Shown here one piece after another: positions 4,717-64,000 of a stretch of DNA of 64,000 nucleotides. How positions within the stretch are numbered: position 1 is the stretch's first letter; every line of letters starts with the position of its first letter. The position numbers and the translations under genes were made by a program. Source of the DNA: a virus; IMG/VR virus record IMGVR_UViG_3300028176_000002, positions 32,497 through 96,496 of that record. One strand, written 5' to 3'. The notes under the pieces were generated by a model that did no database searches, was not told the origin of the DNA, and saw nothing but the letters and a program-made list of their open reading frames with translations.

Positions 4717-5180
4717 TAATTACTCCTCTTTGCTTGCGATTTAATAATACGCACCGCACTGTTAATAATCTTTTCTTTAATTTTAGAAGATGATAATCGC
4801 TTAGTATAAGGGATAAAAGCAATCTTATTATTATCTCTAAGCCAATTTATGCCGGGATTATCTTTTCGATTCTTCCAATCATCTCCTACAACGAATAAAT
4901 CCGCTTTCAATTGGATAAATTGTTCAATATCTACTAATTTAGTTTGCTTAACAACCTTATCCACTATCTTTAATTCTTTAATAATAGCAGTCCTATCTTT
5001 ATAGCAGATTATAGGACGCATGCCTTTATGCTGTAAAATGAGGGAATCTGTAGAAACCCCTACAATCAGATAGGTTCCCATTGCCTTAGCTTGTTTAAGG
5101 ACATTGATATGCCCAAAATGAAGTAAATCGAATGAGCCGGCAGTGAATATTACTTTAATTTTTGATGACATTTTACGCAT
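4716..5180 (-). CDS. TagD/RfaE-type cytidylyltransferase
   Basis: About 154 residues. FTAGSFDLLHFGHINVL is the nucleotidyltransferase signature with the HxGH active-site motif, and a relaxed ISSSxxK-like motif (LSSSKIK) lies near the end, as in glycerol-3-phosphate or heptose cytidylyltransferases. Such enzymes make CDP-activated alcohols or sugars from CTP. The start at MRKMSSK is chosen because GGGGAAT precedes it; it lies inside the 3' end of the HNH gene. The neighbouring LicD-type proteins could use the CDP-activated product (inference). Confidence 0.75.
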   Translation of the reverse strand: MRKMSSKIKVIFTAGSFDLLHFGHINVLKQAKAMGTYLIVGVSTDSLILQHKGMRPIICYKDRTAIIKELKIVDKVVKQTKLVDIEQFIQLKADLFVVGDDWKNRKDNPGINWLRDNNKIAFIPYTKRLSSSKIKEKIINSAVRIIKSQAKRSN

Positions 5181-5788
5181 AGTGTAATTCCCCAGATAAT
5201 GTTCCACATTAATTTGCAACTTCTAATGTCAATAATGGATTTTAATTGATACATTTCTATTATACAAACAACTGGTATTTTATGATGAGCATTTATATTG
5301 CCTTTTGCACCACATACTTGGCAAGTATAATCATCTCGTTTAAACACCCTATTTCTCCAATTCTTATATTTTAACGAAGCGTAAACCAACAAATTTAAAG
5401 TTGTTCTTCCACCTTTCCAATTCGGATTTTTATTTCCACTTATGTCATTATTTTTATAATATAATTTTTTATTACAGCTTTTACAACGTAAACTAATCCC
5501 TTTACCTAATTTCTTTTCACAATCAAGACAAAATTCTACTTTGCAATATTTTCCATGTTTAAAACTTGGAGCAGATGTACCATTTTTACCAAACATAGGA
5601 TTATTTACTCCAGCCATTTCTTTGCTCCGTTTTTCTTTTTGCTTTTTACTAAACCTGAATCCAAACATAGGATTTCCTGTTCCCGCCAACGTCTTATAAT
5701 AACATTCACGACATAATTTATTACTGTTATAATGAGCAGTTTTAGATAGTTTTTTATCGCATCGAAGACAGTAGACTGATTTAATCAT
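5150..5788 (-). CDS. HNH homing endonuclease with NUMOD3 repeats
   Basis: About 212 residues. Two NPMFG motifs and NPNWKGG are NUMOD3-type DNA-binding repeats; zinc-type Cys pairs occur throughout; the C-terminus has RDDYTCQVCG, NAHHK and a final CVKCH, the HNH nuclease core. Inferred role: a free-standing site-specific endonuclease that spreads itself. It sits in the operon with a 31-base overlap into the cytidylyltransferase. The ATG used (MIKSVY) overlaps the previous stop. Confidence 0.8.
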   Translation of the reverse strand: MIKSVYCLRCDKKLSKTAHYNSNKLCRECYYKTLAGTGNPMFGFRFSKKQKEKRSKEMAGVNNPMFGKNGTSAPSFKHGKYCKVEFCLDCEKKLGKGISLRCKSCNKKLYYKNNDISGNKNPNWKGGRTTLNLLVYASLKYKNWRNRVFKRDDYTCQVCGAKGNINAHHKIPVVCIIEMYQLKSIIDIRSCKLMWNIIWGITLCVKCHQKLK

Positions 5789-6275
5789 CAAAAAGCACCA
5801 AACCTATTCTGTAGAAGTAGTCTTTTACTGGAAACTTTAAATTTAATTTGGTTATTTTTTTAACCGCAGCGACTACATCTAGTCCTGTTCCCTCCAATGG
5901 AATGATTGCCTTATCAGGAAATCGACATGGAAACGAACATACATCGCAATTCTTGCAGGAGCCAGCACCAAAACATACTCCAAAATGCCCATCTGATAAT
6001 AGTTTTGCTCTAATTGCGAATAATTTGTCCTGTATTTCTTTACTAGATGAAACTCCCAATTCTTTCCAATTTTCAGGATTTTCTATCAAAAATTTCTTAA
6101 ATACCAGTGCCCCATGCTCAAATTTAGGTAGAATCTTTTTATAATAGCTTACTGATTCAATAAAAGGGGGACACTGTGCCTTGAACCCGTACCTTTTACA
6201 GCTTTTACAGTATTCTCTTACTTTATCACTAAAAAATTCTTCCAATATCTTCGGGTCAAACATTATCTGTTTCAT
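5781..6275 (-). CDS. DUF2284-type predicted metal-binding protein
   Basis: About 164 residues, cysteine rich in the DUF2284 pattern: CKSCKRYG and CPPF near the N-terminus, then GAGSCKNCDVCSFPCRFPDKA and LEGTGLDV. The family is found in bacteria and archaea and is thought to bind metal or an Fe-S centre; its reaction is unknown. The start MKQIMFD has AGGAGGGAAGTT before it. It lies between an HNH gene and an SDR with ATGA-type coupling. A DUF2284 gene in a phage is unusual and suggests capture from a host. Confidence 0.7.
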   Translation of the reverse strand: MKQIMFDPKILEEFFSDKVREYCKSCKRYGFKAQCPPFIESVSYYKKILPKFEHGALVFKKFLIENPENWKELGVSSSKEIQDKLFAIRAKLLSDGHFGVCFGAGSCKNCDVCSFPCRFPDKAIIPLEGTGLDVVAAVKKITKLNLKFPVKDYFYRIGLVLFDD

Positions 6276-6883
6276 AACTTCCCTCCTATAATAATTTCGG
6301 GTACTGAACATTCTTTCGGTAACTTAATTAACATTTTAATTATCTTTGCAATTTCTTTCGTTGAAACTGTTTTAAAATTACCCGGGCAAACAATTGTACT
6401 GTAAATTCTCGGGTTATATTCAGCATTGATACATTGCGTAAGTCCTCTAAGAGCAAATTTAGACATAGTATAAATAGATTTATTTGGTGCTCCTGTAATA
6501 GACCTAGTAGAACCAATGTTAAGTATTAATCCTTCTTTCATTAATTTAATTGCTTCTTGGGTCATATAAAATGTTCCTTTAATATTTAAATCAATTAATC
6601 TCTCAATTTCAAATGGCGGATACGCTGTTAATGGACGAAATTCTCCTAGCATACCTGCATTGTTTATTAGAACATCAATCCTTCCCCATTTTTCAAAAGT
6701 TTTGTACATCAATATCCCAGCATCACCTTGATTGGTTATGTCTCCTTTAACAACCAGACGGTTTTTAGATTCGATATTATAAGAACTCCGGCTTATAGTT
6801 GCAATGTTATACTCGGATAAAGATTGCATAATATCTTTTCCTAATCCCCTACTCGTTCCTGAAATAACGATTACTTTTTTCAT
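6272..6883 (-). CDS. short-chain dehydrogenase/reductase (SDR)
   Basis: 203 residues with the Rossmann start VISGTSRGLGKD, the NNAG motif, a Ser in LNIGSTRS and the catalytic pair YTMSK. These are the marks of NAD(P)-dependent SDRs, which reduce or oxidise sugars and many small molecules. At about 200 residues it is somewhat shorter than the usual 240-260, with a trimmed C-terminus. The setting among glycosyltransferases suggests nucleotide-sugar modification, but the substrate is not shown. Confidence 0.8.
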   Translation of the reverse strand: MKKVIVISGTSRGLGKDIMQSLSEYNIATISRSSYNIESKNRLVVKGDITNQGDAGILMYKTFEKWGRIDVLINNAGMLGEFRPLTAYPPFEIERLIDLNIKGTFYMTQEAIKLMKEGLILNIGSTRSITGAPNKSIYTMSKFALRGLTQCINAEYNPRIYSTIVCPGNFKTVSTKEIAKIIKMLIKLPKECSVPEIIIGGKL

Positions 6884-15310: not shown

Positions 15311-15882
15311 AGTTTTCTCCAGTTCATAATAAGCCACGGAATACATAGATAATTTAACCACATAACTATTTTAAAACTTATTTTAACCATCTTTGCAAAT
15401 ATTAATGTTCCTTTTTCTTTCCCCCAGATTTTCATACATAAAGGGAAGAATGCGATATACCCACCATCCAAACAAGGTATAATTGGTATTAGATTCATTA
15501 TACCTAATGATACACTTATTGTTCCAAAGTAAAATAAATTTTGATTTAACGTTTTTAATCCAATCAACCCGACAATTAACCCTGAAATTATATTCACAGC
15601 ACATCCTGCTGCTGAAATAAATAATTTTTTAATGTATCTTAAATTAGTAAAAGCTGTAGAATTGTTACTTTCAGTTAATTCATCTTCCAATTCACAAAAT
15701 CCTCCTAATGGAAGTAACCGAAATTGATAATTAGTTTTTCCTATTTTTTTCTGAAACAGTATTTTACCAAAACCTACTGCATACGTAGGAACTCCACATC
15801 TACATAACTTTGCAGCGATTAAGTGTCCAAATTCATGTACAATCACACAAATATATAAAGATGTTAGAAATTGAATAATCAT
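15307..15882 (-). CDS. M50 site-2-type intramembrane metalloprotease
   Basis: 191 residues, mostly membrane helices. VHEFGHLIAAK (His16, Glu17, His20) gives the zinc site, and NLIPIIPCLDGG near residue 138 gives the third ligand, as in RseP/SpoIVFB-type site-2 proteases. These cut membrane-spanning regulators inside the lipid bilayer. No PDZ domain is visible, so it is a minimal form. A phage copy could cleave a host anti-sigma factor or a phage membrane protein; both are inference. Confidence 0.85.
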   Translation of the reverse strand: MIIQFLTSLYICVIVHEFGHLIAAKLCRCGVPTYAVGFGKILFQKKIGKTNYQFRLLPLGGFCELEDELTESNNSTAFTNLRYIKKLFISAAGCAVNIISGLIVGLIGLKTLNQNLFYFGTISVSLGIMNLIPIIPCLDGGYIAFFPLCMKIWGKEKGTLIFAKMVKISFKIVMWLNYLCIPWLIMNWRKL

Positions 15883-16424
15883 TCTTCGTTCTCCATAATA
15901 TAAGTAAAAAATGCATACCAGTAATCACGATTATGTAACGTTTCCCTATGACAATTTCTACATAAGGATATTAAATTCTTAGGTTCATTATTAGATTTAT
16001 CATAATCAATATGATGGACTGATAATTTTTCTTTGTATTGACGTTTATGGCATACTTGGCATTTATGATTATCTCTGCTTCTTATCGTTTCTCTGACGTA
16101 ATAAAATTCTTTTGGATGCAAGCAATCGGAATAAGGAATTCCTGTTCCTCCCTGCACTAAACTCATATGTTTTCTAAAAATTTCAGAACGTAATTTTCCC
16201 TTATTAAATTTACCCACTATCTGTCTATAATGATTCCAACATAATTTAGATTTATAATTCGTAAGTTGTTTACTGCATACGGTACATCTGGGTTTTCCCT
16301 TTTTAAAAGTAGCACTGTTTTCGGGGATTGCAATCCATTTACGGTAACATTTTCTACTACAAAATTTTACTTTTGAAGCCGGTGTCTTAAATTTTTTGTT
16401 GCATTGTTTACAATATTTAATCAC
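15879..16424 (-). CDS. HNH endonuclease
   Basis: 181 residues, GTG start behind ATGGAGAAG and overlapping the deformylase stop. N-terminal YCKQC and FCSRKC zinc pairs, then CTVC and a C-terminal HNH core (IRSRDNHKCQVC, LSVHHIDYDKSNNEPKN, LCRNCH). A probable free-standing homing endonuclease placed between deformylase and the M50 protease. Confidence 0.8.
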   Translation of the reverse strand: MIKYCKQCNKKFKTPASKVKFCSRKCYRKWIAIPENSATFKKGKPRCTVCSKQLTNYKSKLCWNHYRQIVGKFNKGKLRSEIFRKHMSLVQGGTGIPYSDCLHPKEFYYVRETIRSRDNHKCQVCHKRQYKEKLSVHHIDYDKSNNEPKNLISLCRNCHRETLHNRDYWYAFFTYIMENEE

Positions 16425-29566: not shown

Positions 29567-31425
29567 TATACACCGCTTTCAGTTGTTAGTTCTTTAGTTT
29601 CGAAATTATATTTACATGGTATTGTTGAATTCCTATAGTTGCCCTTGGGGTCCCTCAATTTGTCGACCTGCCAATGACCACTACTACCATCTTCAGCGTC
29701 CATAAAATATCTAGCAGCTAAGGCTGGCATCTGAACTACCATTGATGGAGCGTACCAGTCAAAAGAAGCAGGTTTTAACTGCATAAAGATAACCAGAATT
29801 CCTCCTTTACGTGCCATTTCTTCCGTAAAGAATTTAAATATAGTATCTGTATTCTCTTTTTCTGACACTAATAACCAGTCTAGGATAGTAAATGCATTAG
29901 GTTCAATTTCAATCGACAATGGATTTCCGTGATATGCCTGATAGAAATCATTTTCTTTTAATCCTAATTTACTTGCGGTTTTTTGATACCTACTTCCAGA
30001 TTCGGAATAAATGTAGTAAGGCTTTATTCCTTGTTTAACTAATTGATGAATAAAATTCATACTGGTAGTAGTCTTTCCGGTTCCTGGAGTAGCACCTAAT
30101 AATATAATATCTCCCTCTTCAAAATCTTGCAAATATTCAAAGTAAGGCATCTTATATTTTAATGCTGTTCCGATTTTACCCCAGCTATCCGTCCATTCTA
30201 CTCTTTCTCTAACTTTATATCTACCTCTTGATAATCGAATCGCTTTTCCATCTTTAACAAATTTTGATAAATATTTATCTACTATTGCTCTAGATAATTT
30301 TAAATTATCCATGATATCTTTCGCATTGACATCATTTTGTAACATTTTTAAGTATTCATATATCGCTTGTTCTTGAGTTGTATCTTCGGCAGTTTTATAT
30401 TTATCTAATGAACCAATCATAGCCTGAATTGCTTGCTGAGGCATAGGGTTTTGTAATAAATTACGGTTCATTAAACTTAAAATAAACTCAGTCTGGTCTG
30501 CATTGAATTTATTTATTAAAATACCGCCTAATTTAGTAAATGTATCATTGCAACATCCATCTAAACCATTATTCACTAATTCAATTACACCGTCGGAAGA
30601 AGATGATATTTTAGTAGGTTCTTCTACCTTTCTACCTACTTCTACCTTCAATAATTCCAATAACTTAGCTTTTAATTCTGCAGGAATAATTTTGATTTCT
30701 GCGTCGATAGTTTTCCAATTATAATTTAAATTTTCTATCTTAGACGGTTGAATCAGTACCTGCCCACCGTCATTTCGGGTATCAATTTTTAAACCTGCAA
30801 TATTTACTGTCTGAGGAATATCTTTATCATACTTAAATACATAATGTGTTCCATGTGGAGAATTCTGCATTAATGTTTCTGCAGCAACTAATTCTGCTAG
30901 TAATATGTTTCTAGCTTCATTCTGGTCTTGATTAAAATCAACATCAATTACAGTTATTCCACTAACTTCACCGGTTCTAAGACCTAAGTTATAACCATTA
31001 TTCAACCATTTTATCCAATCCATTTTATCTAAATGAGTAACATTTGTCCAATCTTTCTCAATTGGATGCTTTCCGTTTTTAGCTATCGGGACTAAAGACC
31101 AAGCATTTTTCTTATATACATCTAATTCAGAATAAATATCTACTGCAAAAGAATTAATTAAATACTCTGTAATCTGAGCATCTGTATAATTCTTTTTATC
31201 CTCCTCTAGTATTCGGACTGCATCAAAAAAAGTTCCTCTCCAACCACATTGCATGCAGGTAATTTTTTGAGTACCTGAAATAGTTGTAGCTGTAGGACTT
31301 TTTCCAATGTATTTGTGTCCTGCTAGATTTGGACATGTAAATAGATTTTGTCCATTCTTACTTGTCTTCTCAAAAGTTTTTAATTTACTTTTAAGATAGT
31401 CGAATAACTTATCGTTAACATTCAT
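29566..31425 (-). CDS. prim-pol/helicase fusion (replicative primase-helicase)
   Basis: 619 residues. N-terminus: a zinc motif (CPNLAGH, CMQCGW). About 100-270: a bifunctional primase/polymerase-type domain (WSLVPIAKNGKHPI, VIDVDFNQ, SPHGTHYVF, QVLIQPS). About 340-420: helical linker. C-terminus: RecA-like ATPase with GATPGTGKTT (near 445). The usual DnaB-like Walker B is hard to see, and residues after it are short for a full helicase. It should prime and unwind DNA at the fork. Confidence 0.8.
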   Translation of the reverse strand: MNVNDKLFDYLKSKLKTFEKTSKNGQNLFTCPNLAGHKYIGKSPTATTISGTQKITCMQCGWRGTFFDAVRILEEDKKNYTDAQITEYLINSFAVDIYSELDVYKKNAWSLVPIAKNGKHPIEKDWTNVTHLDKMDWIKWLNNGYNLGLRTGEVSGITVIDVDFNQDQNEARNILLAELVAAETLMQNSPHGTHYVFKYDKDIPQTVNIAGLKIDTRNDGGQVLIQPSKIENLNYNWKTIDAEIKIIPAELKAKLLELLKVEVGRKVEEPTKISSSSDGVIELVNNGLDGCCNDTFTKLGGILINKFNADQTEFILSLMNRNLLQNPMPQQAIQAMIGSLDKYKTAEDTTQEQAIYEYLKMLQNDVNAKDIMDNLKLSRAIVDKYLSKFVKDGKAIRLSRGRYKVRERVEWTDSWGKIGTALKYKMPYFEYLQDFEEGDIILLGATPGTGKTTTSMNFIHQLVKQGIKPYYIYSESGSRYQKTASKLGLKENDFYQAYHGNPLSIEIEPNAFTILDWLLVSEKENTDTIFKFFTEEMARKGGILVIFMQLKPASFDWYAPSMVVQMPALAARYFMDAEDGSSGHWQVDKLRDPKGNYRNSTIPCKYNFETKELTTESGV

Positions 31426-31969
31426 ATCTGTCTCCTTTTGAAATATTATCTAGAGCCCACATGGGTTGTAAATTCAGGTAATGAAAACATTTAGATTGCT
31501 CTTCTGATTTAGTTAAATCGAACGAAGCACAAGGTCTAATGTGGTCGATGTGCCATCCATCGTAACCATAATTTTTCCAATCCATTCCCGCAGTAAATTT
31601 AGATTCAAGATGTTTCTTTAATTCTTCGATTGAACAACCGAGAAGTTTTAAAGTAACTTTACTTTTATTAATACCTTTTAATGATTTCCATAATCGTAAA
31701 CGCAAATTACCTAAAATCCTAAAACTAATATCAGTATTTTTCCTATTATTTTGATATTTTTGATGATATTCGTTGTATTTTGTAATATTGTTAGTTCGGT
31801 GTTTTTTCTTATAATCAGAAATAATTAATATATTTTTCTGATAATATTTACTTGAGTAATTTTTCAACCTCAGTTTTTTACTAATCATTAAACACATTTC
31901 AGAACAATATAATTGATGATTTGATTTTAATTCAAATAATTTTTTACATTCTTTACACGATTTTTTCAT
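31415..31969 (-). CDS. HNH endonuclease, family A (copy 2)
   Basis: 184 residues. CKECKK and YCSEMC at the N-terminus, a basic helical linker, LLGCSIEELKKHLES, then WHIDHIRPCASFDL, EQSKCF and YLNLQPMWALDN. Lies between the primase-helicase and the zinc-ribbon/OB protein, overlapping the primase start by 11 bases. Confidence 0.85.
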   Translation of the reverse strand: MKKSCKECKKLFELKSNHQLYCSEMCLMISKKLRLKNYSSKYYQKNILIISDYKKKHRTNNITKYNEYHQKYQNNRKNTDISFRILGNLRLRLWKSLKGINKSKVTLKLLGCSIEELKKHLESKFTAGMDWKNYGYDGWHIDHIRPCASFDLTKSEEQSKCFHYLNLQPMWALDNISKGDRYEC

Positions 31970-42268: not shown

Positions 42269-42841
42269 TTAATCTCCTTTAATTATTTTATCATGCTTTT
42301 TCATATTATCTAAAGCCCATAATGGTTGTAGATTCGTATAATGAAAACATAGGGCTTGTTCTCCCGGCTTACTTAAATCGTAACTGTTACAGGGTCGAAT
42401 GTGGTCTATGTGCCACTTTCCATAGTTCGACCAGGACATTCCTTTAGAAAACTGTTTTTCTAAATAATATTTTAAAAATTCTATACTGCAATCTAATAAT
42501 TTTATTGCATTACCTGATTTAGTATTTCTTTTTAACGCTTTCGCTAATCTTGCACGCATACATTTCGCAATTCTATGATTTAAATCTGTTTTATATTTAA
42601 AATTCTGATATTTCCGATTATGCTCTTTGCTATTTTGATAACGGGCTTTTATTTCTTTAATGTGTAATTTATTATATTTTTGATGTTGTTTTAATTCTTT
42701 TACTTTGTTATTTATGTAATATTCTTTCCTCATTTTACTTTGACAGACTTTGCAATAGTAATTAAATCCATCTTTTTCTCTTTTGGATTTATAAAACTCA
42801 GTTGTATTTAATTCTCTTTTACAGCTTGGGCATTTTTTCAT
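42269..42841 (-). CDS. HNH endonuclease, family A (copy 4)
   Basis: 190 residues: CPSCKREL and CKVCQ, basic linker, LLDCSIEFLKYYL, WHIDHIRPCNSYDL, GEQALCFHYTNLQPLWALDN. It is the first gene behind its own class 1 promoter. The remnant at 57236-57439 is closest to this copy (GEQALCFHYTNLQPLWAL). Confidence 0.85.
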   Translation of the reverse strand: MKKCPSCKRELNTTEFYKSKREKDGFNYYCKVCQSKMRKEYYINNKVKELKQHQKYNKLHIKEIKARYQNSKEHNRKYQNFKYKTDLNHRIAKCMRARLAKALKRNTKSGNAIKLLDCSIEFLKYYLEKQFSKGMSWSNYGKWHIDHIRPCNSYDLSKPGEQALCFHYTNLQPLWALDNMKKHDKIIKGD

Positions 42842-43856: not shown

Positions 43857-44516
43857 TTATATTTCTCCAACTCTATTACTTTTTGAAAGATTATCTTTCG
43901 CCCATAATGGTTGAAGGTTTGTATAATGAAAACATTTACGCTGTTCGTCAGGTTTACTAAGGTCAAAACTGGAACATGGAATTATGTGGTCTATATGCCA
44001 ACCATATAAACCATGATTATCCCAAGTCATTCCTACTATAAATTTACTCTCTAAATATTTTTTCAAAAATTCTACTGAACAACTAAGTAATTTCACGGTT
44101 GATTTTGATTTAAAATTATGTTTTAAAGCGTGTATTATTCTTGTTCTTAAATTACATAAAATTTTAAAACGAATATCGGTTTTTGCTTTATTATACATGT
44201 AAAAGTTTATTTCTTTTCTATGTGTTTTCCGATAGTTTTTGCGAAATTTTAGTATTTTTTGTCTATTTTTTAAATAATAATCTTTTTGATATTTTTTATC
44301 ATGTCGTTTGACTTTGGGTCTAGCTCGATATTTTTTATGAGCTTCTTTAACGCTGGGTCTAGCATAATATTCCTTAATTTTATTTTTATTAATTGAACGA
44401 TATTCTTTCCGACAATCTTTACACCATAATTGAAATCCGTCGTTATTTCGTTTACATCTGTCAAAATAATTTACGTCCTTATCTGTTTTGCATTTAGGAC
44501 ATTTTTTAATATTCAT
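43857..44516 (-). CDS. HNH endonuclease, family A (copy 5)
   Basis: 219 residues: CPKCKTDKDV and CKDCRKEYRS, KNRQKILKFRK-type repeats, LLSCSVEFLKKYL, WHIDHIIPCSSFDL, YTNLQPLWAKDN. Family-A layout, next to the coiled-coil gene before sigma. Confidence 0.85.
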   Translation of the reverse strand: MNIKKCPKCKTDKDVNYFDRCKRNNDGFQLWCKDCRKEYRSINKNKIKEYYARPSVKEAHKKYRARPKVKRHDKKYQKDYYLKNRQKILKFRKNYRKTHRKEINFYMYNKAKTDIRFKILCNLRTRIIHALKHNFKSKSTVKLLSCSVEFLKKYLESKFIVGMTWDNHGLYGWHIDHIIPCSSFDLSKPDEQRKCFHYTNLQPLWAKDNLSKSNRVGEI

Positions 44517-45890: not shown

Positions 45891-46360
45891 AATATCCTCA
45901 CAAATTTATAAATCTTGTTATCACTAAATTGATGTGTAATTCTTTTAACCTTAGCTGGATAATTGCCTACATTACCCTCAATGCTGATAAAACTATCCTT
46001 ATTAATCTTCTCAATTATGCCTATATGCCCACCACCTTGACGATTAAAAATAACTAAGTCTCCACTTTTGAGTTCTTTAATTGATAATAGTTTACCATAG
46101 TCTACAAAACTTTTTGCTCTTAATAAATACGGAATCTTATTTCCATTCTTCTTTAAACAATAAGAAACAAATCCGGCACACCACGGAAGATTAGTTTGTC
46201 AGTTTAAATATTGCTCAACATAAATACCTTTATTATTTCCACCAAGTTCTCCATTACCTATTTCGTTTCGTGCAATAGTAACTAAATCTGCTCTAGCCAA
46301 AGTAAATAAACAGAAGATTGTGAGTATCGCTATAATTATACATTCAATTATTTTTCTCAT
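45887..46360 (-). pseudogene. exported CHAP-type peptidoglycan hydrolase interrupted by in-frame TGA
   Basis: A 158-codon frame including the final stop, with an ideal CAGGAGTTAAA site and ATGA coupling to RuvB. Codons 1-24 form a signal peptide ending TLARA. Then GELGGNNKGIYVEQYLN, a TGA at codon 54 (46199-46201), and LPWCAGFVSYC, GGGHIGI and SIEGN: the Cys, His and third residue of a CHAP amidase/endopeptidase. The TGA is followed by C, a leaky stop context. TGA is an ordinary stop elsewhere here, so this is a nonsense mutation, a sequence error or a readthrough-controlled lysin. Called pseudogene only because of the stop. Confidence 0.75.
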
Positions 46361-47349
46361 TTTAACTCCTGCAATAATTTTTTACCTAAATCAGTAATAA
46401 CCCTACCTCTACTTAATCGGGAAATGTATTTTTCCATAATCAAGAATGGTTCTTGTAGGGTCATATAGTCTTGCTTTGTGGTCTGCGTAATGATTGCTAA
46501 TACTTCTGCCCCAACTGGTTTATTTATCTCTGCTAAATGCTCTAATACAATTAAATCATTTGTAGTTAAAGAATTTTTTATAACTTGATGAGCATTTAAA
46601 ACTTTTTTCATATCTTTACAGATTACGAGGTCGTCAAAATAGTTAATCGCTATTCTTGGAGTATAACGAGTATTAACTGAAAGTAAATCATAATCTTCTT
46701 CATAGATATTTAATTTATATAATTGGTCGTTATATTGTTTTAATATGGCTTTAATATCTTCTGCGGAATAATGTTCAAGGTTTACACTCTGACATCTATC
46801 AATCATAGGGGCTAATCTCTTTTGCAGTATGTTCTTATCTGTGGTTGCCCCTATGAAGATAAATGGTTTTACTTTTAGATTACCAACAGGCAATAAGAAG
46901 TCCTCTAATAAAGGATACATAAATTCGCCTAATGATTTTTCTAATCCGTGGATTTCGTCTACAAATAATATTTGTGTTTTTTTAGCATCTGCGTTTTTTA
47001 CTAAAAATTGAATTAAATTTTCTTGTGTAAATGACCCGGCTACATAAGTAGAGATTTCATATTCTAATTCATTTCCGATAATATAAGCCAATGTAGATTT
47101 TCCTGTTCCTTTGCTTCCACTAATAATAAAATGAACTGGTTTAATTTCTTTTATTTTTTGCAAATTAATATTAATTAATTCTTTAGCCCGGGATTGCCCT
47201 ATATATTGTAATAGGGTCTTGGGTCTAAATGAATATATCTTAGGTTTAATCTGTTCAGAATGATAGGATTCTTCCTTAGAAACAATCCCTAACTTGTCCT
47301 TACCCCATTCTAATAATTGACTAATACCCAATATGTCTAAAAAGTCCAT
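46357..47349 (-). CDS. ruvB: RuvB-like Holliday junction branch-migration ATPase
   Basis: 330 residues. FRPKTLLQYIGQ, Walker A GSKGTGKST (78-86), Walker B ILFVDEIHGL, FIGATTDKN (sensor 1 region), RYTPRIAINYF (sensor 2) and the winged-helix end SRLSRGRVITDLG match RuvB. A 35-residue N-terminal extension is unusual. No RuvA was seen, but a RuvC-like gene is at 22864. It should move or resolve recombination junctions. Confidence 0.75.
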   Translation of the reverse strand: MDFLDILGISQLLEWGKDKLGIVSKEESYHSEQIKPKIYSFRPKTLLQYIGQSRAKELININLQKIKEIKPVHFIISGSKGTGKSTLAYIIGNELEYEISTYVAGSFTQENLIQFLVKNADAKKTQILFVDEIHGLEKSLGEFMYPLLEDFLLPVGNLKVKPFIFIGATTDKNILQKRLAPMIDRCQSVNLEHYSAEDIKAILKQYNDQLYKLNIYEEDYDLLSVNTRYTPRIAINYFDDLVICKDMKKVLNAHQVIKNSLTTNDLIVLEHLAEINKPVGAEVLAIITQTTKQDYMTLQEPFLIMEKYISRLSRGRVITDLGKKLLQELK

Positions 47350-47981: not shown

Positions 47982-49166
47982 TTAAAACCCCCCGTTAACC
48001 GCTAACTGCCCTTGTGTTATGCTTATTGACCTCACTACACCCTTTTTATCAATCGTTCGTTCAATTATCGTCGCCCCACCTACTTTTTGTTCCAATCTAT
48101 CTAATCTAGCATTAATTTTCTTATTCTCCCTATCCAAATAAGAATTGCCAATAGGGATAACTACATTCAATCCTACTTCGCTACAAACATTTCTTCCTAC
48201 ATTATATTCTCCATATACACCTATCTCTAAATGCTTTTCTCGAATAAATTTTACTTCTGTTCTAACAATATACTGCGTTCTCTCGAGTTTACTTACTCTA
48301 TTACTCACATCATCAACCCTATTATTTAACTGATTATCTGCTGTGGCTCTTGTCGTTGCTTCATTATTAATATTGTTTTGTAAATTAACATCTCTACTTT
48401 GACTATTATTATCTACTATATTGATATTGTTTTGTAACTTTTTATCTCCCAATATCCTTGCTGTTTTTTCTGTCTTATCTGCTGACTTCCTTTCGTTTGT
48501 TTCTGTGTTTATGTTATTCTGTAAAGTTTTATCTGCACTCTTGCGGTTTTTAGTTTCATTTATTATCTTATTGTCTAACTTAGTATCTGCTTGTTTTCTT
48601 TGTTTAGTTTCTTTATCAATATTATTTTGTAATTTATTATCTGCTGTCTTTCGTTGCTTAGTTTCTACATTTATTCTATTGTCTAATCTAATTACTTCTG
48701 CCGGGTCAAAATCTAACCCATTATCTCCCTTGTCGCCCTTATCCCCTTTATCTCCTTTTAATCCGTCTAAACCATTCGTTCCGTCAACTCCATTAAAACC
48801 TTGCAAACCTTGAATCCCCGGGTCGCCTTTAAGTCCCTGTAAACCCTGTTCTCCTTTGTCGCCCTTAACACCATTGATTCCATTCGTTCCGTTAGTCCCG
48901 GCTATCCCTTGTATTCCCGGTATACCTTGTAACCCGGTATCTCCTTTTTCCCCTTTCAAAAAACTCGGGTCTGTCCAAACTCCTTGATGTTTATTATCTG
49001 AATTTACTAATATATAACCCCTTTTTCCGTTTCCTGTGTCGGTAACATTGTCGTCATCTTTTGCAAAACCATTTGTTAATCCTAACATCAATAATGCGAT
49101 TACCATTAACCCTAGTATGAATAATACTTTATCATACTTTTTTACAAATTCATTTAACTTTAACAT
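47982..49166 (-). CDS. exported collagen-like, coiled-coil surface protein
   Basis: 394 residues. Signal/anchor (VLFILGLMVIALLMLGL), then about 80 residues of Gly-x-y collagen repeats (GEKGDTGLQG, GDKGDKGDKG), then about 130 residues of repeating LQNNINTET-x-RKxAD coils, then a beta-rich end (KHLEIGVYGEYN, EVGLNVVIPIG). It resembles trimeric fibrous adhesins. GGAGGAGTAAA precedes the ATG. Role may be an envelope-anchored fibre or a tail accessory. Confidence 0.75.
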   Translation of the reverse strand: MLKLNEFVKKYDKVLFILGLMVIALLMLGLTNGFAKDDDNVTDTGNGKRGYILVNSDNKHQGVWTDPSFLKGEKGDTGLQGIPGIQGIAGTNGTNGINGVKGDKGEQGLQGLKGDPGIQGLQGFNGVDGTNGLDGLKGDKGDKGDKGDNGLDFDPAEVIRLDNRINVETKQRKTADNKLQNNIDKETKQRKQADTKLDNKIINETKNRKSADKTLQNNINTETNERKSADKTEKTARILGDKKLQNNINIVDNNSQSRDVNLQNNINNEATTRATADNQLNNRVDDVSNRVSKLERTQYIVRTEVKFIREKHLEIGVYGEYNVGRNVCSEVGLNVVIPIGNSYLDRENKKINARLDRLEQKVGGATIIERTIDKKGVVRSISITQGQLAVNGGF

Positions 49167-50852: not shown

Positions 50853-51037
50853 TTAATTTCTCCTACTAATACCGGCTTATCTTCTTTTATAATATACTCG
50901 TCTATTACCACCTTTAGCCCGGTCAAAACAAACTCATTTCTCTTGTCCTCTGCCACTTCCAAACTTTGAGTATCTAAAATATGTATCTTCTTATGCTCTG
51001 ATTCTAAAACCAAACTCAATTCATACCAAGTATTCAT
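50849..51037 (-). CDS. 62-residue MNTWY-type small protein
   Basis: Opens MNTWYELSLVLESEHKK; see 44655-44840 for the related start. Alpha/beta pattern, function unknown. Confidence 0.5.
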   Translation of the reverse strand: MNTWYELSLVLESEHKKIHILDTQSLEVAEDKRNEFVLTGLKVVIDEYIIKEDKPVLVGEIK

Positions 51038-51291
51038 TTTAGTTCTCCTTTCTTGATAATAATTGTTCTTTCTTCTTCTAAAATCTTCAAAAATAAGGAT
51101 TCCGGCTTAGATTTTTCTTCTATTTCCGCCTTCACCTGCTTGAAAAAATTTTTTTCACGCAAAACACGGGTAAAATAAGAAAATAAAATTTCTGCGGGTC
51201 GGGCTAATAAATTAAAAATTTTCTTAATTTCGCCCTTCACCCCGCCAAAAAATAATAAAAATTTTTTAGTCTTCACCAAATTAGAATTCAT
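51034..51291 (-). CDS. 85-residue basic hypothetical protein
   Basis: Begins MNSNLVKTKKFLLFFGGVKG within the end of the duplicated gene; GAGG lies nine bases before this ATG. The gene after the second copy (55892) starts MNSKIYLKK in the same arrangement. Confidence 0.45.
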   Translation of the reverse strand: MNSNLVKTKKFLLFFGGVKGEIKKIFNLLARPAEILFSYFTRVLREKNFFKQVKAEIEEKSKPESLFLKILEEERTIIIKKGELK

Positions 51292-51526
51292 TTTCATTTT
51301 CCTCATTAACTTTCTTCATATAAGCCCGGCTACCTTTAGTTCCCTTTTCAACCTCAAACCTACTAGGCACATAATTGCCCCAATAATCCCTATGCCCCTT
51401 TAATCCAAGCATACAATAACCATTCTCTATCATATCCATAGCATATCTTCCTACACTACCCTCTAATCGCCAAGCATTACCATTATTGATTAACTTTTGG
51501 CACTCTCTTATCTCTGTTTTAGTCAT
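51281..51526 (-). CDS. 81-residue small phage protein, duplicate copy 1
   Basis: MTKTEIRECQKLINNGNAWR, EGSVGRYAMDMIENG, HRDYWGNYVPSRFEV. The copy at 56043-56288 differs at about nine positions, mostly around HRDYWGN (there QRNAYGG). Such YVPSR proteins are small and common in phages; role unknown. The homology extends into the flanking bases on both sides. Confidence 0.65.
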   Translation of the reverse strand: MTKTEIRECQKLINNGNAWRLEGSVGRYAMDMIENGYCMLGLKGHRDYWGNYVPSRFEVEKGTKGSRAYMKKVNEENENEF

Positions 51527-51539
51527 TTAATACTCCTTT

Positions 51540-52769: not shown

Positions 52770-53369
52770 TTATATATAGAGTATTAACTCTTTCTGTTTC
52801 GTTTCTTTTCTTAAATAGTCCAATAGGAATTGCAACCCAACATTCGCTACAATTGAATTTCCTAATTGTATATTTTTTTCTAAAATATCTTCTTTTCTTT
52901 GACAAGAACCTTTTAAATTATTTTCGGTAGTCAAATTGATATACTTATTATCTATATCCAATTCCTTTGATGTTAAATAAGCAAAAATTGATTTCCCATT
53001 CGCCCTTAAATCTAATAAAGGTTTCCCGGATTCTAAAGCGATTAATCTTGTCGTATTATTATCCACACACAAAACTATCAAATCATACCCGGATAACTGC
53101 CCGGGATTCTCTATTTTGTCGTGGATTGCCTTATACCCGGTCAAATCTGACATTACATCTGCCTTATTCAACCCTAAATGCTCAATATCATAGGTTGTAT
53201 ATGATAAATTTTTCTCCTCTACTATATCCATATCGAATAAATCTATCCCCATAACATTGATTCTATCAAGCCCGGATATATCCTTTTTAATTAACTCGGA
53301 TAATCCCCGGGTAAAATAAGAGCCGATTCCCCCTTGCCCTACGATTGCGATTTTTAAATTATCTTTCAT
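52770..53369 (-). CDS. ThiF/E1-like adenylyltransferase for ubiquitin-like protein
   Basis: 199 residues. GQGGIGSYF (11-19) is the Rossmann ATP-binding loop; GIDLFDMDIVEEKNL follows the E1 pattern of Asp then an Asn-Leu pair, though the usual Arg-Gln after NL is replaced; VDNNTTR gives the Asp and Arg near residues 103-108; Cys156 could carry the thioester. It should adenylate the C-terminal Gly of a ubiquitin-like partner, and the beta-grasp gene just upstream ends in Gly-Gly. The missing Arg makes activity uncertain. Confidence 0.75.
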   Translation of the reverse strand: MKDNLKIAIVGQGGIGSYFTRGLSELIKKDISGLDRINVMGIDLFDMDIVEEKNLSYTTYDIEHLGLNKADVMSDLTGYKAIHDKIENPGQLSGYDLIVLCVDNNTTRLIALESGKPLLDLRANGKSIFAYLTSKELDIDNKYINLTTENNLKGSCQRKEDILEKNIQLGNSIVANVGLQFLLDYLRKETKQKELILYI

Positions 53370-53389
53370 TTTAAAATCTCCTTATAATT

Positions 53390-53456
53390 TTATAAAGCCG
53401 GGGTAGAGTTTTGTTTCTTTCGGTAAACCCTACCCATTCCCGGGTAATGGGATAGT
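53390..53456 (-). promoter_or_regulatory. structured leader between Ubl and E1 genes
   Basis: CCCATT-ACCCGGG-AATGGG is a perfect dyad, followed by GGTAG with CTACC. It could tune expression of the E1-like gene (attenuator or RNA stability element). Folding is by eye only. Confidence 0.4.
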
Positions 53457-53651
53457 TTAGCCACCAATTAAACTATCCGTAACTACAATTTCTCTAGGCA
53501 TTTCCGTAATTCCGTCTAAAGTAACCTCGCTGACAAAATTTCCGTCTGCGAAAACAAACTTGTCCTTTAGGTTCACTTTTTCTTTTAATTCTGCGATTGT
53601 TTCTACTGCTAATTCTGTATGCCCACTCTCGTCTAATACTATTACTTTCAT
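53457..53651 (-). CDS. beta-grasp ubiquitin-like protein with C-terminal Gly-Gly
   Basis: 64 residues. MKVIVLDESGHTELAVETIA opens with two strands of a beta-grasp-type fold, a central helix (AELKEKV), further strands (FVFADGNFV, REIVVTD) and the end LIGG. Exact Gly-Gly termini mark proteins activated by E1-like enzymes (ubiquitin, MoaD, ThiS), and one lies next in the operon. A sulfur-carrier (MoaD/ThiS) role is the main alternative. AAAGGGGGATAAA precedes the ATG. Confidence 0.7.
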   Translation of the reverse strand: MKVIVLDESGHTELAVETIAELKEKVNLKDKFVFADGNFVSEVTLDGITEMPREIVVTDSLIGG

Positions 53652-53686
53652 TTTATCCCCCTTTCTAGTTAAGCCCTCTAATCTTT

Positions 53687-53722
53687 ATAAGCAAGTATAA
53701 CATATTTTCCGGGCTTTGTCAA
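53687..53722 (-). promoter_or_regulatory. class 2 promoter (sigma70-like) for the Ubl gene
   Basis: TTGACA (53717-53722), 17-bp spacer, TATACT (53694-53699). The -35 lies inside a CCGGG...CCCGG dyad, which may be the terminator of the gene before. Leader about 35 bases. Confidence 0.75.
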
Positions 53723-53741: not shown

Positions 53742-53891
53742 TTAATCTAAACTTCCCCCGGCTAGAAAAAATGCCTTTCTATAAGCCACCCGGGTTTTCC
53801 AATTGTCTAAATTTTCTATCGCTGTCCAAATTACTTTACTGCCGGATTGTTCGATTTTTTCTTTCATTAAATCTAAATCAATTTCTTCCAT
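53742..53891 (-). CDS. 49-residue hypothetical protein
   Basis: MEEIDLDLMKEKIEQSGSKV, helical, ends AGGSLD. AAAGGGGGAAATT precedes the ATG. Lies upstream of the Ubl promoter. Function unknown. Confidence 0.45.
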   Translation of the reverse strand: MEEIDLDLMKEKIEQSGSKVIWTAIENLDNWKTRVAYRKAFFLAGGSLD

Positions 53892-53904: not shown

Positions 53905-55566
53905 TTAATGTATCGTATATATCTGTTCTCTTAAATTTCCGTCATTTAACATACATATACAAAACTGCAATAATTTATCAAACTTACATAAGTATTTCCC
54001 CTCTTTAGTTTTCTCCTCGATACATACATAATCGTTTGCCGGAAAAGTCCAAACTCCGCAATTTTCTTCGTCTTTCATTTTTACCAAATAATTTTTTAAT
54101 TTTCCTTTAACAATATATCCACCCTCTTTTTTAAATACTCGGGTTTTATTCTTCTCTAAAAATTCATTGAATAAATTTTCGGCTCTTTCTTCTGCTAATC
54201 TTCGTTTTTCTACATATCCTTGAATCTTACCAATTAAAATATCCTCTAATATCTTCCCGGCTTTTAATGTATCACAAATCCCGGATATAGAACTTAATCC
54301 ACCACCTCGCAAATCATATGATAATGTTTTAATATCTTTATATCCTCTTTTTACTGAAAAAGTATCAATGTTTACTTGCCAATTTTCCTTATCTTCTGCG
54401 GTAAAATTAAAGTTTATAGGTATGCTCAACCCATTTAATTTAATCTCTATGGTCTTACCCTCTAACAATTCCAATTGTGTGCCGGAGAATAGCCGGATTT
54501 TCTCTAAATAGTCCTCTAAGTTCGTCAATCTATGTATTAAAGTATTTTTATCTGTGCCACTCCACCTACCACCCCGGATAAATTCTATTGCTTTTCGCAT
54601 TTTTTGAATAGGTATCTTTATTCCATTTATAGTAAATCTTGATTTTCCCTTATCATTAACTTTGTTTTCTATCCTTACTTCTTTTAAAAATACTTCTGCT
54701 TTTGTTTCCGGGTCATAAGAATAAACTTTAAATCTTAACCACTTTTTAGGTAAATTTTCTAATTGTTTTTCAATCGGTTCGTCATATTTTCCACATTGAT
54801 AACACCTCTCTAAATCATTTAAAAAATCTTCATATCCTATTTCGATAAATTTCCCGGAATATACGCTATCTCTGACTAATTGTTCTTTCTTAAAAATATT
54901 TACTACTTTATCCCGGAATTCAATTTTAAAACCACTATCTTTATCAATAAAATAATTATCCTTAATTATCGTTCCCTTATCTTCTAATATGGTCATTTTA
55001 TCATACTGCCGGATTAAAGATTCTAATTTTTCTTCTTCTTCATTACCTTTAATTTTCTCTTGCTTTTCTTGATTCTCGATTTCTTTTTCTTCTGCCTGTA
55101 TCTGTGCAATTCTATTTTTAATTTTAACTAAATCTTCATTGAAAATTAAACTACAATCTAATTTATCTATATCTGCAATCGCTTTTAAATTCATACCTAC
55201 CTTATCTTTATAGTTTTCAAAATTTATTATTTCTGTGTCGGTTATAATAAGGTCATTATAAAAATATAACTTTGATTTTTCGTGATTATAATAACCTTTG
55301 TTTTCGTCAAAAGTAACTGCTCTCCCGGTATCTAAATAATTATATATCGCTGATTCACTTGTAACCATATATAAGGTTCTTCCCATACAAAAAACCCGGG
55401 TATTCTGGTCATATTGAAAAACCTTTAATCTTAAACTATCGCTACTATCTTTTATATCCTCTTGCTTAAAAAAATCCGGCTCTAAAACTTCCTTACCTAA
55501 ATTTATTTTCTGCCATATCCTTAAATAAGTGGTTTCTGTGTTCTCTATCGTATATGTTCTAATCAT
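53905..55566 (-). CDS. 553-residue protein of unknown family
   Basis: No domain recognised. The first 140 residues are beta-rich (RVFCMGRTLYMVTSESA); about 140-190 is a charged coiled coil; the middle has strand-and-helix repeats (FTINGIKIPIQKMRKAIEF, IEIKLNGLSIPINFNF); the end is aromatic. It is the largest gene of the CCGG-rich block and is transcribed just upstream of the Ubl and E1 genes, from the class 2 promoter at 55594. Its role could be as partner or substrate of the Ubl system, but that is only position. Confidence 0.6.
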   Translation of the reverse strand: MIRTYTIENTETTYLRIWQKINLGKEVLEPDFFKQEDIKDSSDSLRLKVFQYDQNTRVFCMGRTLYMVTSESAIYNYLDTGRAVTFDENKGYYNHEKSKLYFYNDLIITDTEIINFENYKDKVGMNLKAIADIDKLDCSLIFNEDLVKIKNRIAQIQAEEKEIENQEKQEKIKGNEEEEKLESLIRQYDKMTILEDKGTIIKDNYFIDKDSGFKIEFRDKVVNIFKKEQLVRDSVYSGKFIEIGYEDFLNDLERCYQCGKYDEPIEKQLENLPKKWLRFKVYSYDPETKAEVFLKEVRIENKVNDKGKSRFTINGIKIPIQKMRKAIEFIRGGRWSGTDKNTLIHRLTNLEDYLEKIRLFSGTQLELLEGKTIEIKLNGLSIPINFNFTAEDKENWQVNIDTFSVKRGYKDIKTLSYDLRGGGLSSISGICDTLKAGKILEDILIGKIQGYVEKRRLAEERAENLFNEFLEKNKTRVFKKEGGYIVKGKLKNYLVKMKDEENCGVWTFPANDYVCIEEKTKEGKYLCKFDKLLQFCICMLNDGNLREQIYTIH

Positions 55567-55586: not shown

Positions 55587-55622
55587 ATAGTTAAGTATAA
55601 CATTTTATTTTCCTTTTGTCAA
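55587..55622 (-). promoter_or_regulatory. class 2 promoter (sigma70-like)
   Basis: TTGACA (55617-55622), 17-bp spacer, TATACT (55594-55599), about 25 bases before the 553-residue gene. Overlaps the 3' end of the coil gene. Confidence 0.75.
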
Positions 55623-55895: not shown

Positions 55896-56053
55896 TCTAA
55901 CACCTCAATAGGTTTTACCAAAATATCCTTTACACCTCTTAACCTTAAATCATTTATATAGGTCAATGCTTGTCTATAACTCGCCCCGGATATATAAACT
56001 CTTTCTGCTTGAGTAACTCTCCAATTCTTTTTTAAATAAATTTTAGAATTCAT
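55892..56053 (-). CDS. 53-residue hypothetical protein
   Basis: MNSKIYLKKNWRVTQAERVY. Starts within the second copy of the duplicated gene, like the gene after copy 1. Has CCGGGG in its coding bases. Function unknown. Confidence 0.45.
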   Translation of the reverse strand: MNSKIYLKKNWRVTQAERVYISGASYRQALTYINDLRLRGVKDILVKPIEVLE

Positions 56054-56288
56054 TTTCATTTTCCTCATTAACTTTCTTCATATAATCCCGGCTACCTTTA
56101 GTTCCCTTTTCCACCTCAAACCTACTAGGCACATAACCACCATAAGCATTTCTTTGCCCCTTTAGTCCAAGCATACAATAGCCATTCTCTATCATATCCA
56201 TAGCATATCTTCCTACACTACCCTCTAATCGCCAAGCATTACCATTATTGATTAACTTTTGGCACTCTCTTATCTCTGTTTTAGTCAT
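56043..56288 (-). CDS. 81-residue small phage protein, duplicate copy 2
   Basis: Near-identical to 51281-51526 (MTKTEIREC, EGSVGRYAMD, YVPSRFEV), with the same flanking bases at both ends. Differences cluster at QRNAYGG versus HRDYWGN, as if that loop is under separate selection or was swapped. Confidence 0.65.
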   Translation of the reverse strand: MTKTEIRECQKLINNGNAWRLEGSVGRYAMDMIENGYCMLGLKGQRNAYGGYVPSRFEVEKGTKGSRDYMKKVNEENENEF

Positions 56289-56289
56289 T

Positions 56290-56391
56290 TTATACTCCTT
56301 TAGTAATGTTATTCAAATCCCAAATCTTTATACAAGAAAACTCTCTTTCTGTAACTCTTTCTGCGATAAACAAATCACTTCCACAATCGCA
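56290..56391 (-). pseudogene. small cysteine ORF with broken start
   Basis: The frame CDCGSDLFIAERVTERE to WDLNNITKGV reads well as protein and ends with a normal TAA, but it has no start codon. The ATG at 56392 with AAGGGGGATATA before it is one base out of frame and stops after five codons. A single-base indel near the start would explain this. Confidence 0.4.
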
Positions 56392-57235: not shown

Positions 57236-57439
57236 CTAAAATAATTTTATCCTTTTTTCCAAATTATACAAAGCCCATAATGGTTGTAAATTCGTGTAAT
57301 GAAAACATAGGGCTTGTTCTCCCGGCTCACTTAAATTAAAGGAATTACAGGGCTTTATATGGTCAATATGCCACTCGGTCAAGCCCTTGCCATTATCCCC
57401 CTTAACCCCAATATCTCCATTTACTTTTGCTTTATACAT
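57236..57439 (-). pseudogene. HNH family A remnant
   Basis: 67 residues. Only WHIDHIKPCNSFNL, GEQALCFHYTNLQPLWALYN remains; the zinc finger and linker are gone and a short new head (MYKAKVNGDIG) with GGGGGTAAAA replaces them. Nearest to copy 4 at 42269. Probably a decayed insertion. Confidence 0.65.
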
Positions 57440-58478
57440 TTTTACCCCCTTTTTGATTACTCTTGCCGATTTCATAGGATAACCGGCAACCCTTAACCCC
57501 TAAAATCTTTTTATCAATGTATTTTATATCCCGGAATAAACAAACTACCTTAAAGCCATTATTCCCGGATATTCCAAAATATCCCAATTTTTTAACATAT
57601 ACTAGAATTTCATTAAAATTTTTCCCGGAATCTTTTAAATTTTTCGGGTCTTTTTCAAAATCGTAAATCTTGCCCGGTTCGATTTCCGCAATATAAACAT
57701 ATTTCGCCCCGGCTAAAAAATTTTCCTTGCCCTTACCTATATAAAAAAAACTCCGGGCTAAATTCGATTCCCGGATTGATTCCTTAGTATAATGATTCTT
57801 GCCAAAATAACCCGGCTCAATTTTACCCTTAAAATCTTGATTGCTATAATGATATAATTTAATCTTTTTGGTATTATCCCCGGCATATAGCGAAAATGCC
57901 CGGGCTATTGCCGGGCTTAATACTTCCGGGCTATGCTCTAGGGCTATTGCCGGGCTTAATACTTCCGGGCTATGCTCTAGGGCTATTGCCGGGCTTAATA
58001 CTTCCGGGCTAGATTCGCCGGCAAAATCAAAAACTTTTTGCCCTTGCAAAATTTTATCCCTTGCGAAAGAATCACAATTTATTTCACGAGTTAAATTATC
58101 ATAACCCGTAAAATTTTCTTGATGTTTTAGTAAATAGTGCCCGATTTCGTGATATATAACAAACAAAAGATATTTTCTAATCCCTTTTATTTTTGCCGGG
58201 ATATATCTACCTTGTGGTAATAACCCGGGATTCTTATATATATTGATTATTTGTTTTATATTTATATCTAATTGCCAATCGTAATTTTCCGCCCGGCTTA
58301 TACTCCGCCGGCTCGATAATTTTGTATTATTATCCCCGGATTCATAATCGTATAATCTAACTTTTAAAATTTTAGGTAATTCTTTTTTATGTCTTAAAAT
58401 AAAATCGGTTATATACCTATATAATCGGGGATATTCTTTTTTTACTAGATTAGATTCTTTATTATTGAATTTTATCAT
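57432..58478 (-). CDS. zincin metallopeptidase with ART-like C-terminal domain (polyvalent protein)
   Basis: 348 residues. N-terminal zincin with YHEIGHYLLKH (His110, Glu111, His114) and downstream Glu/Asp candidates for the third ligand (REINCDSFA). Residues about 155-195 are three near-copies of AIALEHSPEVLSP. The C-terminal part (KLYHYSNQDF, FFYIGKG, KYVYIAEIEPGKIYDFE) resembles the HYS-type domain seen in phage polyvalent proteins and ADP-ribosyltransferase-like toxins. Could be an effector that acts on host proteins; activity untested. Confidence 0.6.
   Translation of the reverse strand: MIKFNNKESNLVKKEYPRLYRYITDFILRHKKELPKILKVRLYDYESGDNNTKLSSRRSISRAENYDWQLDINIKQIINIYKNPGLLPQGRYIPAKIKGIRKYLLFVIYHEIGHYLLKHQENFTGYDNLTREINCDSFARDKILQGQKVFDFAGESSPEVLSPAIALEHSPEVLSPAIALEHSPEVLSPAIARAFSLYAGDNTKKIKLYHYSNQDFKGKIEPGYFGKNHYTKESIRESNLARSFFYIGKGKENFLAGAKYVYIAEIEPGKIYDFEKDPKNLKDSGKNFNEILVYVKKLGYFGISGNNGFKVVCLFRDIKYIDKKILGVKGCRLSYEIGKSNQKGGKNV
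57902..58011. repeat. 39-bp tandem repeat, about 2.8 copies
   Basis: Three perfect or near-perfect units of 39 bp (13 codons), starting at 57902, 57941 and 57980. Each unit holds two CCGGG words. In frame with the zincin/ART-like gene, where it codes for AIALEHSPEVLSP. Confidence 0.9.
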
Positions 58479-63185: not shown

Positions 63186-63464
63186 ATGGCTGATAAGAAT
63201 ATAAAAATAAATTTTGTCGATGCCCAAGCAATTAGAGTAAAATTGCACGAGGGAATTCAAGGAACTGTTGGTGCTACTGGTACAACCGGTGCAGCGTCTA
63301 CTATTCCTGGACCTATCGGTACAACAGGTGCAATCGGAACAACAGGTCCAGCAGCTACAGACCATAATTTATTAACTAATAAAGATTATGTTCATGCGGG
63401 GCATACTGGTTTTCAAAAACAATTAGTATATTCACCAGATTTTAAATGTTATGAGATTGAATAA
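63186..63464 (+). CDS. short collagen-like tail protein
   Basis: 92 residues with a soluble head (DKNIKINFVDAQAIRVKL), a collagen stretch of Gly-x-y (GTVGATGTTGAAS, GPIGTTGAIGTTG) and a tail similar in type to fibre ends (HAGHTGFQKQLVYSPD). AATAGGAGCATAA precedes the ATG. Confidence 0.7.
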   Translation: MADKNIKINFVDAQAIRVKLHEGIQGTVGATGTTGAASTIPGPIGTTGAIGTTGPAATDHNLLTNKDYVHAGHTGFQKQLVYSPDFKCYEIE

Positions 63465-63493
63465 ACAGAGAAAAGATATTATCTGTTTTTTTC
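63465..63493 (+). terminator. weak hairpin-T-run
   Basis: ACAGA and TCTGT can pair around a 12-base loop, followed by seven T. Located after the collagen-like gene. Weak stem, so it may only reduce readthrough. Confidence 0.4.
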
Positions 63494-63543
63494 CGTAAGG
63501 AAAATTTGATGAGAAAGAAAAATCAACAAAAAGGAGAATTAAG

Positions 63544-64000
63544 ATGGCAATTAAAAGAATTGCGGTCATGGATGAGTTTCCGTTTCAACCGAATGCGTTA
63601 GCTTTTATAACACATGCGGATTTAGCAACAATGGCTGGTGGTACTACAGTAAAAGGAGCGAGATACATTGTTAGCGATGCTGGTGCTAATCAATATAAAA
63701 TTGCTTATTTTACTGATACTATCGGAAGTTTAGTGTATTTAGTTCCAACCGTCGGGTGGTTAATATTTGTTGAAGATGCAGATAAATATTATAAATACAT
63801 TACTTCTTGGACTGAGTACATTGGGCAGCAAGGTATCGCAGGTACCACAGGTGCTGTAGGTGCTGACGGTACTACAGGTGCAGTTGGAACTACAGGTGCT
63901 GTAGGTGCTGACGGTACTACAGGTGCAGTTGGAACTACAGGTGCTGTAGGTGCTGACGGTACTACAGGTGCAGTTGGAACTACAGGTGCTGTAGGTGCTG
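63544..64000 (+). CDS. collagen-like tail fibre, partial
   Basis: Runs off the right edge. [20 protein letters not shown], a beta-rich head of about 95 residues ending near EYIGQQG, then a perfect 15-residue repeat rich in Gly-Ala/Thr-x. AAAAGGAGAATTAAG precedes the ATG. Likely a trimeric virion fibre shaft. Confidence 0.75.
63856..64000 (+). repeat. 45-bp perfect tandem repeat in the fibre gene
   Basis: Units start at 63856, 63901, 63946 and 63991, three full copies and a part at the edge, with no base differences. Codes for 15 residues with Gly every third. May vary in copy number between phages. Confidence 0.9.

Follow-up and report, generated by a model that had tools for sequence, protein, structure and literature searches.

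A 64,000-nucleotide window of a viral genome (bases 32497–96496 of a 96,496-base, or 96.5-kb, IMG/VR virus record, here G000) encodes on its minus strand a 64-residue ubiquitin-like protein (Ubl; 53457–53651) with a C-terminal Ile-Gly-Gly and, after it, a 199-residue homologue of E1/ThiF-fold Ubl-activating enzymes (52770–53369) with a candidate thioester cysteine, C156. By its gene content G000 reads as a tailed phage: terminase-, portal- and capsid-like genes (names that are our own reading, made without a PHROG match) and a weak tape-measure match lie in its first 32 kb, and the window carries genes for a DNA polymerase, a UvsX-like recombinase, a primase and a DNA ligase. Both open reading frames (ORFs) were confirmed where a preliminary description of this DNA had placed them. 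The first ends in TDSLIGG followed by the stop, the second carries the motifs GQGGIG, N54-L55 and C156, and each is preceded by a Shine–Dalgarno-like site read from the sequence (AAAGGGGG at 53657–53664 for the Ubl gene and AAGGAGA at 53377–53383 for the E1 gene). A terminal GG alone is unremarkable, since 2 of the 389 ORFs of the record end in this way. The two genes are not chance ORFs, because the pair is conserved with low dN/dS in two related phages and the Ubl of each of the three phages has IGG as its end. The E1 gene had been described as directly following the Ubl gene; this order holds, but an 87-nt, hairpin-bearing spacer lies in between.

AlphaFold2 models of the Ubl, computed with three sequences as input, show the secondary-structure order of a beta-grasp domain (E2–7, E10–14, H19–25, E32–35, E38–40, H42–47 and E54–58), with a mean pLDDT of 76.8 for the best model and lower values for the other four. 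All 50 of the 50 listed Foldseek matches in the PDB are ubiquitins, ubiquitin variants or other ubiquitin-superfold domains, with probabilities of 0.8–0.99 (mostly above 0.9), E values of at least 3.3e-3 and TM scores of 0.4–0.5. Among viral models the best match (TM 0.65) is a 311-residue protein of an uncultured Caudovirales phage, and most of those next in rank are viral ubiquitins. Sequence searches with the Ubl gave no match in Pfam, NCBIfam or the PDB and none of significance in PHROGs, so the fold assignment rests on structure prediction and not on sequence. These models and matches moderately support the beta-grasp, ubiquitin-like fold first proposed for the 64-mer, and the prediction did not return a fold other than beta-grasp. 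The terminal IGG is present in all three Ubl homologues, and the proteins of the two related phages, G001 and G002, are 70% and 80% identical to that of the window. Among 60 proteins shared with G002 the Ubl is the most conserved (80% identity against a median of 44%), it ranks fourth of the 82 shared with G001 (70% against a median of 49%), and its dN/dS relative to these phages is 0.04–0.15.

The 199-mer belongs to the E1/ThiF family, as had been suggested. It passes the Pfam ThiF profile (PF00899; 31.5 bits, gathering cut-off 28.1), an E1 profile (four relatives) matches UBA6, UBA3, TcdA, UBA5, MccB, Cap2, MoeB and BubCD in the PDB with E values down to 1.6e-6, and hhalign aligns it with the ThiF protein of plasmid PRTRC systems over 185 columns (E 2e-17). 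When 21 E1s are aligned, the window protein is seen to retain the GxGGxG loop of the adenylation site, D46, N54, K69 and D103. The column of C156, already singled out in the preliminary description, is Cys in 21 of 21 sequences and falls at the crossover-loop position of a catalytic-type Cys. The same alignment bears out the reported lack of an Arg after the Asn-Leu pair: of the 21 E1s, 13 have an Arg after Asn-x-x and 8, all of them phage proteins, do not; in its place stand Tyr in the window E1 (Tyr57) and its two relatives, Ala in the proteins of loci L004 and L027, and Gly in the Flavobacterium and crAss-like phage E1s. The window E1 clade also begins directly at the first strand, without the Arg-bearing N-terminal extension of canonical E1s. 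With both this extension and the Arg after Asn-Leu missing, adenylation by the window E1 is not assured. Its dN/dS of 0.19–0.27 relative to the two related phages indicates that the protein is under purifying selection. A scan of genome contigs with the E1 returned remote chromosomal E1s only.

The preliminary description considered Ubl and E1 a minimal pair, a view that does not hold: the unit is larger, because a 553-residue and a 49-residue protein encoded upstream accompany Ubl and E1 in every phage that has them, and are lost with them. The cassette runs, on the minus strand, from the 553-residue protein (53905–55566) through the 49-residue protein (53742–53891) to the Ubl and the E1. The same four genes occur in the same order in the IMG/VR phages G001 (97 kb, locus L002) and G002 (110 kb, locus L003), where they encode proteins of 552–556 residues, proteins of 53–54 residues at the position of the 49-residue protein, 65-residue Ubls ending in IGG and 196-residue E1s, with identities that exceed the genome medians in both phages. 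The 553-residue protein, a candidate transfer partner or target, is an orphan that is 61–65% identical in the two related phages, with a dN/dS of 0.18–0.25. Nothing exceeded threshold in Pfam, NCBIfam, PHROG or PDB sequence searches with it, its AlphaFold2 model (pLDDT 47) is uninformative and Foldseek gave nothing usable. None of these sources gave usable support for an E2 or JAB domain inside this protein, and its 'GICDTL' stretch, which resembles an E2 Cys motif by eye alone, is not claimed as one. Viral contig scans found no further Ubl or full-length 553-residue homologue beyond the two phages, and none was found in a phage collection (searched with both proteins) or in a plasmid collection (searched with the 553-residue protein).

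The cassette is missing from a third related record, G004 (50.8 kb), a closer relative of G000 with a median identity of 70%. At the G004 junction (L023 5652–6210) the first codons of the 553-residue gene are fused to the counterpart of window positions 51034–51306. This corresponds to a deletion of about 4.3 kb, with the join at a short stretch common to both sides around TTTTTT[T/C]AAGCA. This may be a natural deletion, and could also be an assembly artefact. On either side of the cassette lies one copy of a direct repeat of 259 nt (51281–51539 and 56043–56301; copies 94% identical) that could provide a route for cassette loss or gain; each copy contains an 81-residue ORF. Absence from a close relative suggests that the cassette is an accessory, perhaps host-dependent trait of this phage group.

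A scan of the window's minus strand (64 kb) for TTGACA-16/18-TATAAT with at most one mismatch identified five sites, two of them directly before the 553-residue and Ubl genes. Both are predicted near-consensus extended −10 sigma-70 promoters on the minus strand (TTGACA-17-TATACT, with TG before the −10 box), located at 55594–55622 upstream of the 553-residue gene and at 53694–53722 directly upstream of the Ubl gene. The former is likewise present in L002; the latter is present in L002 with an 18-nt spacer and reduced in L003 to the TATACT −10 box. Within the 87-nt spacer between Ubl and E1 lies a predicted RNA hairpin (53401–53435, minus strand) with an 11-bp stem and a 13-nt loop. It occupies the same place in three phages, with 100% pairing and four pairs changed on both sides. 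Pairing falls to 38–57% when the partner is slid by 1 to 3 columns, and a shuffle control gave 40 of 500, which with three sequences is merely suggestive. A promoter of its own for the Ubl and a hairpin before the E1 would fit production of the Ubl in excess over the E1.

Neither a JAMM motif nor a Prok-JAB match was found in G000; the Prok-JAB profile also missed a protein of locus L004 with a visible HRHPGNAAHSGVDDED motif, so G000 may encode a divergent JAB. No E2 motif or Prok-E2_D match was found in G000, and because Prok-E2_D matched no control genome either, this null result proves nothing. Profiles for ThiS (PF02597), rhodanese, cysteine desulfurase (Aminotran_5) and PAPS reductase had no match in G000. 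The earlier statement that no E2, JAB or sulfur-pathway gene lies nearby thus stands in so far as none was found in the record, its E2 part coming from a search without a working control. A SprT-like/M78-like metallopeptidase upstream was considered as a deconjugase and rejected as an obligate partner, because its family differs between G000 and G001/G002 and stops interrupt it in G002. In a 348-residue protein of the window (57432–58478, minus strand), three SPEVLSPAIALEH-type repeats link a HEIGH metallopeptidase region, which has weak Lit/M78-like matches, to a C-terminal domain; in G001, G002 and G004 this domain stands alone.

Phage-borne E1 loci are not unique to this group, as loci in a 111-kb phage (L004), a crAss-like phage and Acinetobacter phage ME3 illustrate. 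L004 is the only other IMG/VR phage found with the window E1 as query. Its operon (2587–6618) encodes, one after the other, a 122-residue protein, a 516-residue protein with HPHASGSGSSGLSTPC, a 447-residue JAMM-motif protein and an E1; the motifs were called by eye, and the first three proteins have no Pfam match worth keeping. The 122-residue protein may hold a Ubl domain, the Cys-bearing HPH...C protein is a candidate E2 by its visual likeness, and the operon looks like a full conjugation system. In the crAss-like phage an annotated metalloprotease adjoins 'ThiF', and in ME3 a gene annotated PRTRC protein A lies near 'ThiF'. In a maximum-likelihood tree the window E1 groups weakly (77/94) with the E1s of crAss-like cr85_1, Flavobacterium Fpv1 and L004, likewise phage-borne, short and devoid of the Arg. 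Among these loci the window cassette is a distinct version: unlike the crAss-like and L004 loci it has no adjacent metalloprotease or JAMM protein (Fpv1 has just a weak Prok-JAB trace nearby), and the 553-residue and 49-residue partners are absent from all three.

Together these observations suggest that, within infected cells, the virus carries out protein tagging, or sulfur transfer, by itself. With about an even chance, we read the cassette as a phage Ubl-activation system for protein conjugation in which the 553-residue protein is a candidate transfer partner or target. The Ubl would be made in quantity from its own promoter and the E1, lying behind the hairpin, in smaller amount. The E1 would use ATP to adenylate the C-terminal glycine of the Ubl and probably hold it as a thioester on Cys156, and the Ubl would then be passed to amines of phage or host proteins, straight from the E1 or aided by the 553-residue protein, which would stand in for classical E2/JAB modules. 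Conjugation is favoured by the Ubl fold, the invariant IGG, the family and motifs of the E1, the conservation of the cassette and its joint absence from G004, and the promoter and hairpin. The JAMM protein and candidate E2 beside the E1 of L004 and the metalloprotease beside that of the crAss-like phage point the same way. This reading is weakened by the missing Arg and N-terminal extension, by the lack of a recognisable E2 or JAB and of an assignable fold for the 553-residue protein, and by the modest Foldseek matches of the Ubl, with no E value below 1e-3 and only the best of five models fair. A tentative further possibility is self-contained viral tagging, in which a stripped-down E1 activates the GG-ended Ubl and a new partner, the 553-residue protein, transfers it onto host or virion proteins without E2 or JAB. 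Counter-defence, virion modification and host modification are possible biological roles.

Rather unlikely is a sulfur carrier: after adenylation by the E1, the Ubl would receive sulfur from a cysteine desulfurase or rhodanese of the host and, as a thiocarboxylate, pass it on for a phage or host modification such as that of tRNA or nucleotides. ThiF/MoeB-type E1s act on GG-ended beta-grasp carriers, and the window pair resembles ThiS–ThiF and MoaD–MoeB in joining such a protein to an E1 fold. Unlike both, it has no ThiS Pfam match, its E1 is without the Arg, and the record contains no genes of a sulfur or cofactor pathway. PAPS-reductase-family genes are present in two of the three cassette-bearing phages, G001 and G002, as tandem genes near the DNA polymerase (G001:C1:47006-48512 and G002:C1:91087-92591), but these lie far from the cassette, and PAPS reductase was rejected as the sulfur partner on its absence from G000, which lacks matches to rhodanese and cysteine desulfurase as well. 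Nor are the cassette partners recognisable as sulfur enzymes.

Still less probable is a non-catalytic or divergent pair: an E1-fold protein that has lost adenylation would bind the Ubl in a scaffolding role, or the two together would be a decoy of host Ubl-based defence of the CBASS Cap2 or Bil/Bub type. The window clade lacks the Arg at both positions where one is expected at the ATP phosphates, and a weak profile similarity links the E1 domain to defence E1–E2 proteins; against this, the nucleotide-binding loop, D46, N54, K69, D103 and C156 are all kept and purifying selection acts on the E1. In Bil/Bub and type II CBASS (Cap2–Cap3), as is predicted for the window pair, an E1 activates a C-terminal Gly in prokaryotic cells. 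Those systems serve bacteria against phages and include E2 and JAB modules, whereas the window cassette is encoded by a phage and has neither in recognisable form. That a bacterial E1–E2 can join a C-terminal Gly in thioester and in isopeptide bonds is shown by Cap2 (PMC10097602).

Operon classes combining E1, E2, JAB and Ubl genes were described by Iyer et al. 2006 (PMC1779556), and class 6d, judged by gene content, probably corresponds to the plasmid PRTRC (ParB-related, ThiF-related cassette) system. PRTRC systems resemble the window cassette in encoding a stand-alone small Ubl together with a stand-alone E1 on a mobile element, in providing its best E1 family match, and in the common Cys column and GxGGxG loop. 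The window cassette lacks their E2-like (B), JAB (A), ParB, E and F proteins; no PRTRC partner was matched in it by NCBIfam, and hhalign profiles of the Ubl and the 553-residue protein match none of PRTRC A, B, C, E or F (up to six plasmids). The window Ubl ends in GG and cannot be aligned with PRTRC C, which ends in a single Gly, and the window E1, unlike PRTRC E1s, has neither the Arg after Asn-Leu nor the N-terminal extension. A PRTRC variant serving phage genome maintenance or partition is thus disfavoured as very improbable: in NCBIfam all three close-relative E1s match PRTRC_ThiF (TIGR03736) best, but at 38–55 bits against a cut-off of 144.75, and the partner comparison together with the E1 tree, in which a PRTRC clade with support of 99/95 excludes the window E1, led us to reject membership.

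The phage TAPI proteins are likewise Ubls with a conserved C-terminal Gly (PMC1779556); they lie in tail operons with JAB/NlpC proteins, whereas the window Ubl adjoins an E1 outside the structural genes. No phage Ubl–E1 pair is described in the literature searched, most subscription papers and preprints being outside that search. Bacterial Ubl conjugation is known so far mostly as an antiphage weapon, and the retention in a phage group of its own E1, together with a Ubl that ranks among its best conserved proteins, suggests that phages too use Ubl chemistry. The four-gene cassette and a natural relative without it make testable what is tagged, which partner takes part and which hosts require it. 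Should E1s without the Arg prove active, the view of the minimal needs of an adenylating E1 would change.

Elsewhere in the record, seven HNH-endonuclease-like genes, recognised by motif, are scattered between phage genes, including those at window positions 15879–16424, 31415–31969, 42269–42841, 43857–44516 and 57236–57475. Collagen-like proteins with GxY repeats are encoded at 47982–49166 and 63186–63999, one with coiled-coil-like repeats and others at the contig end. A RuvB/clamp-loader-like AAA ATPase (46357–47349, minus strand) is kept in all four related phages.
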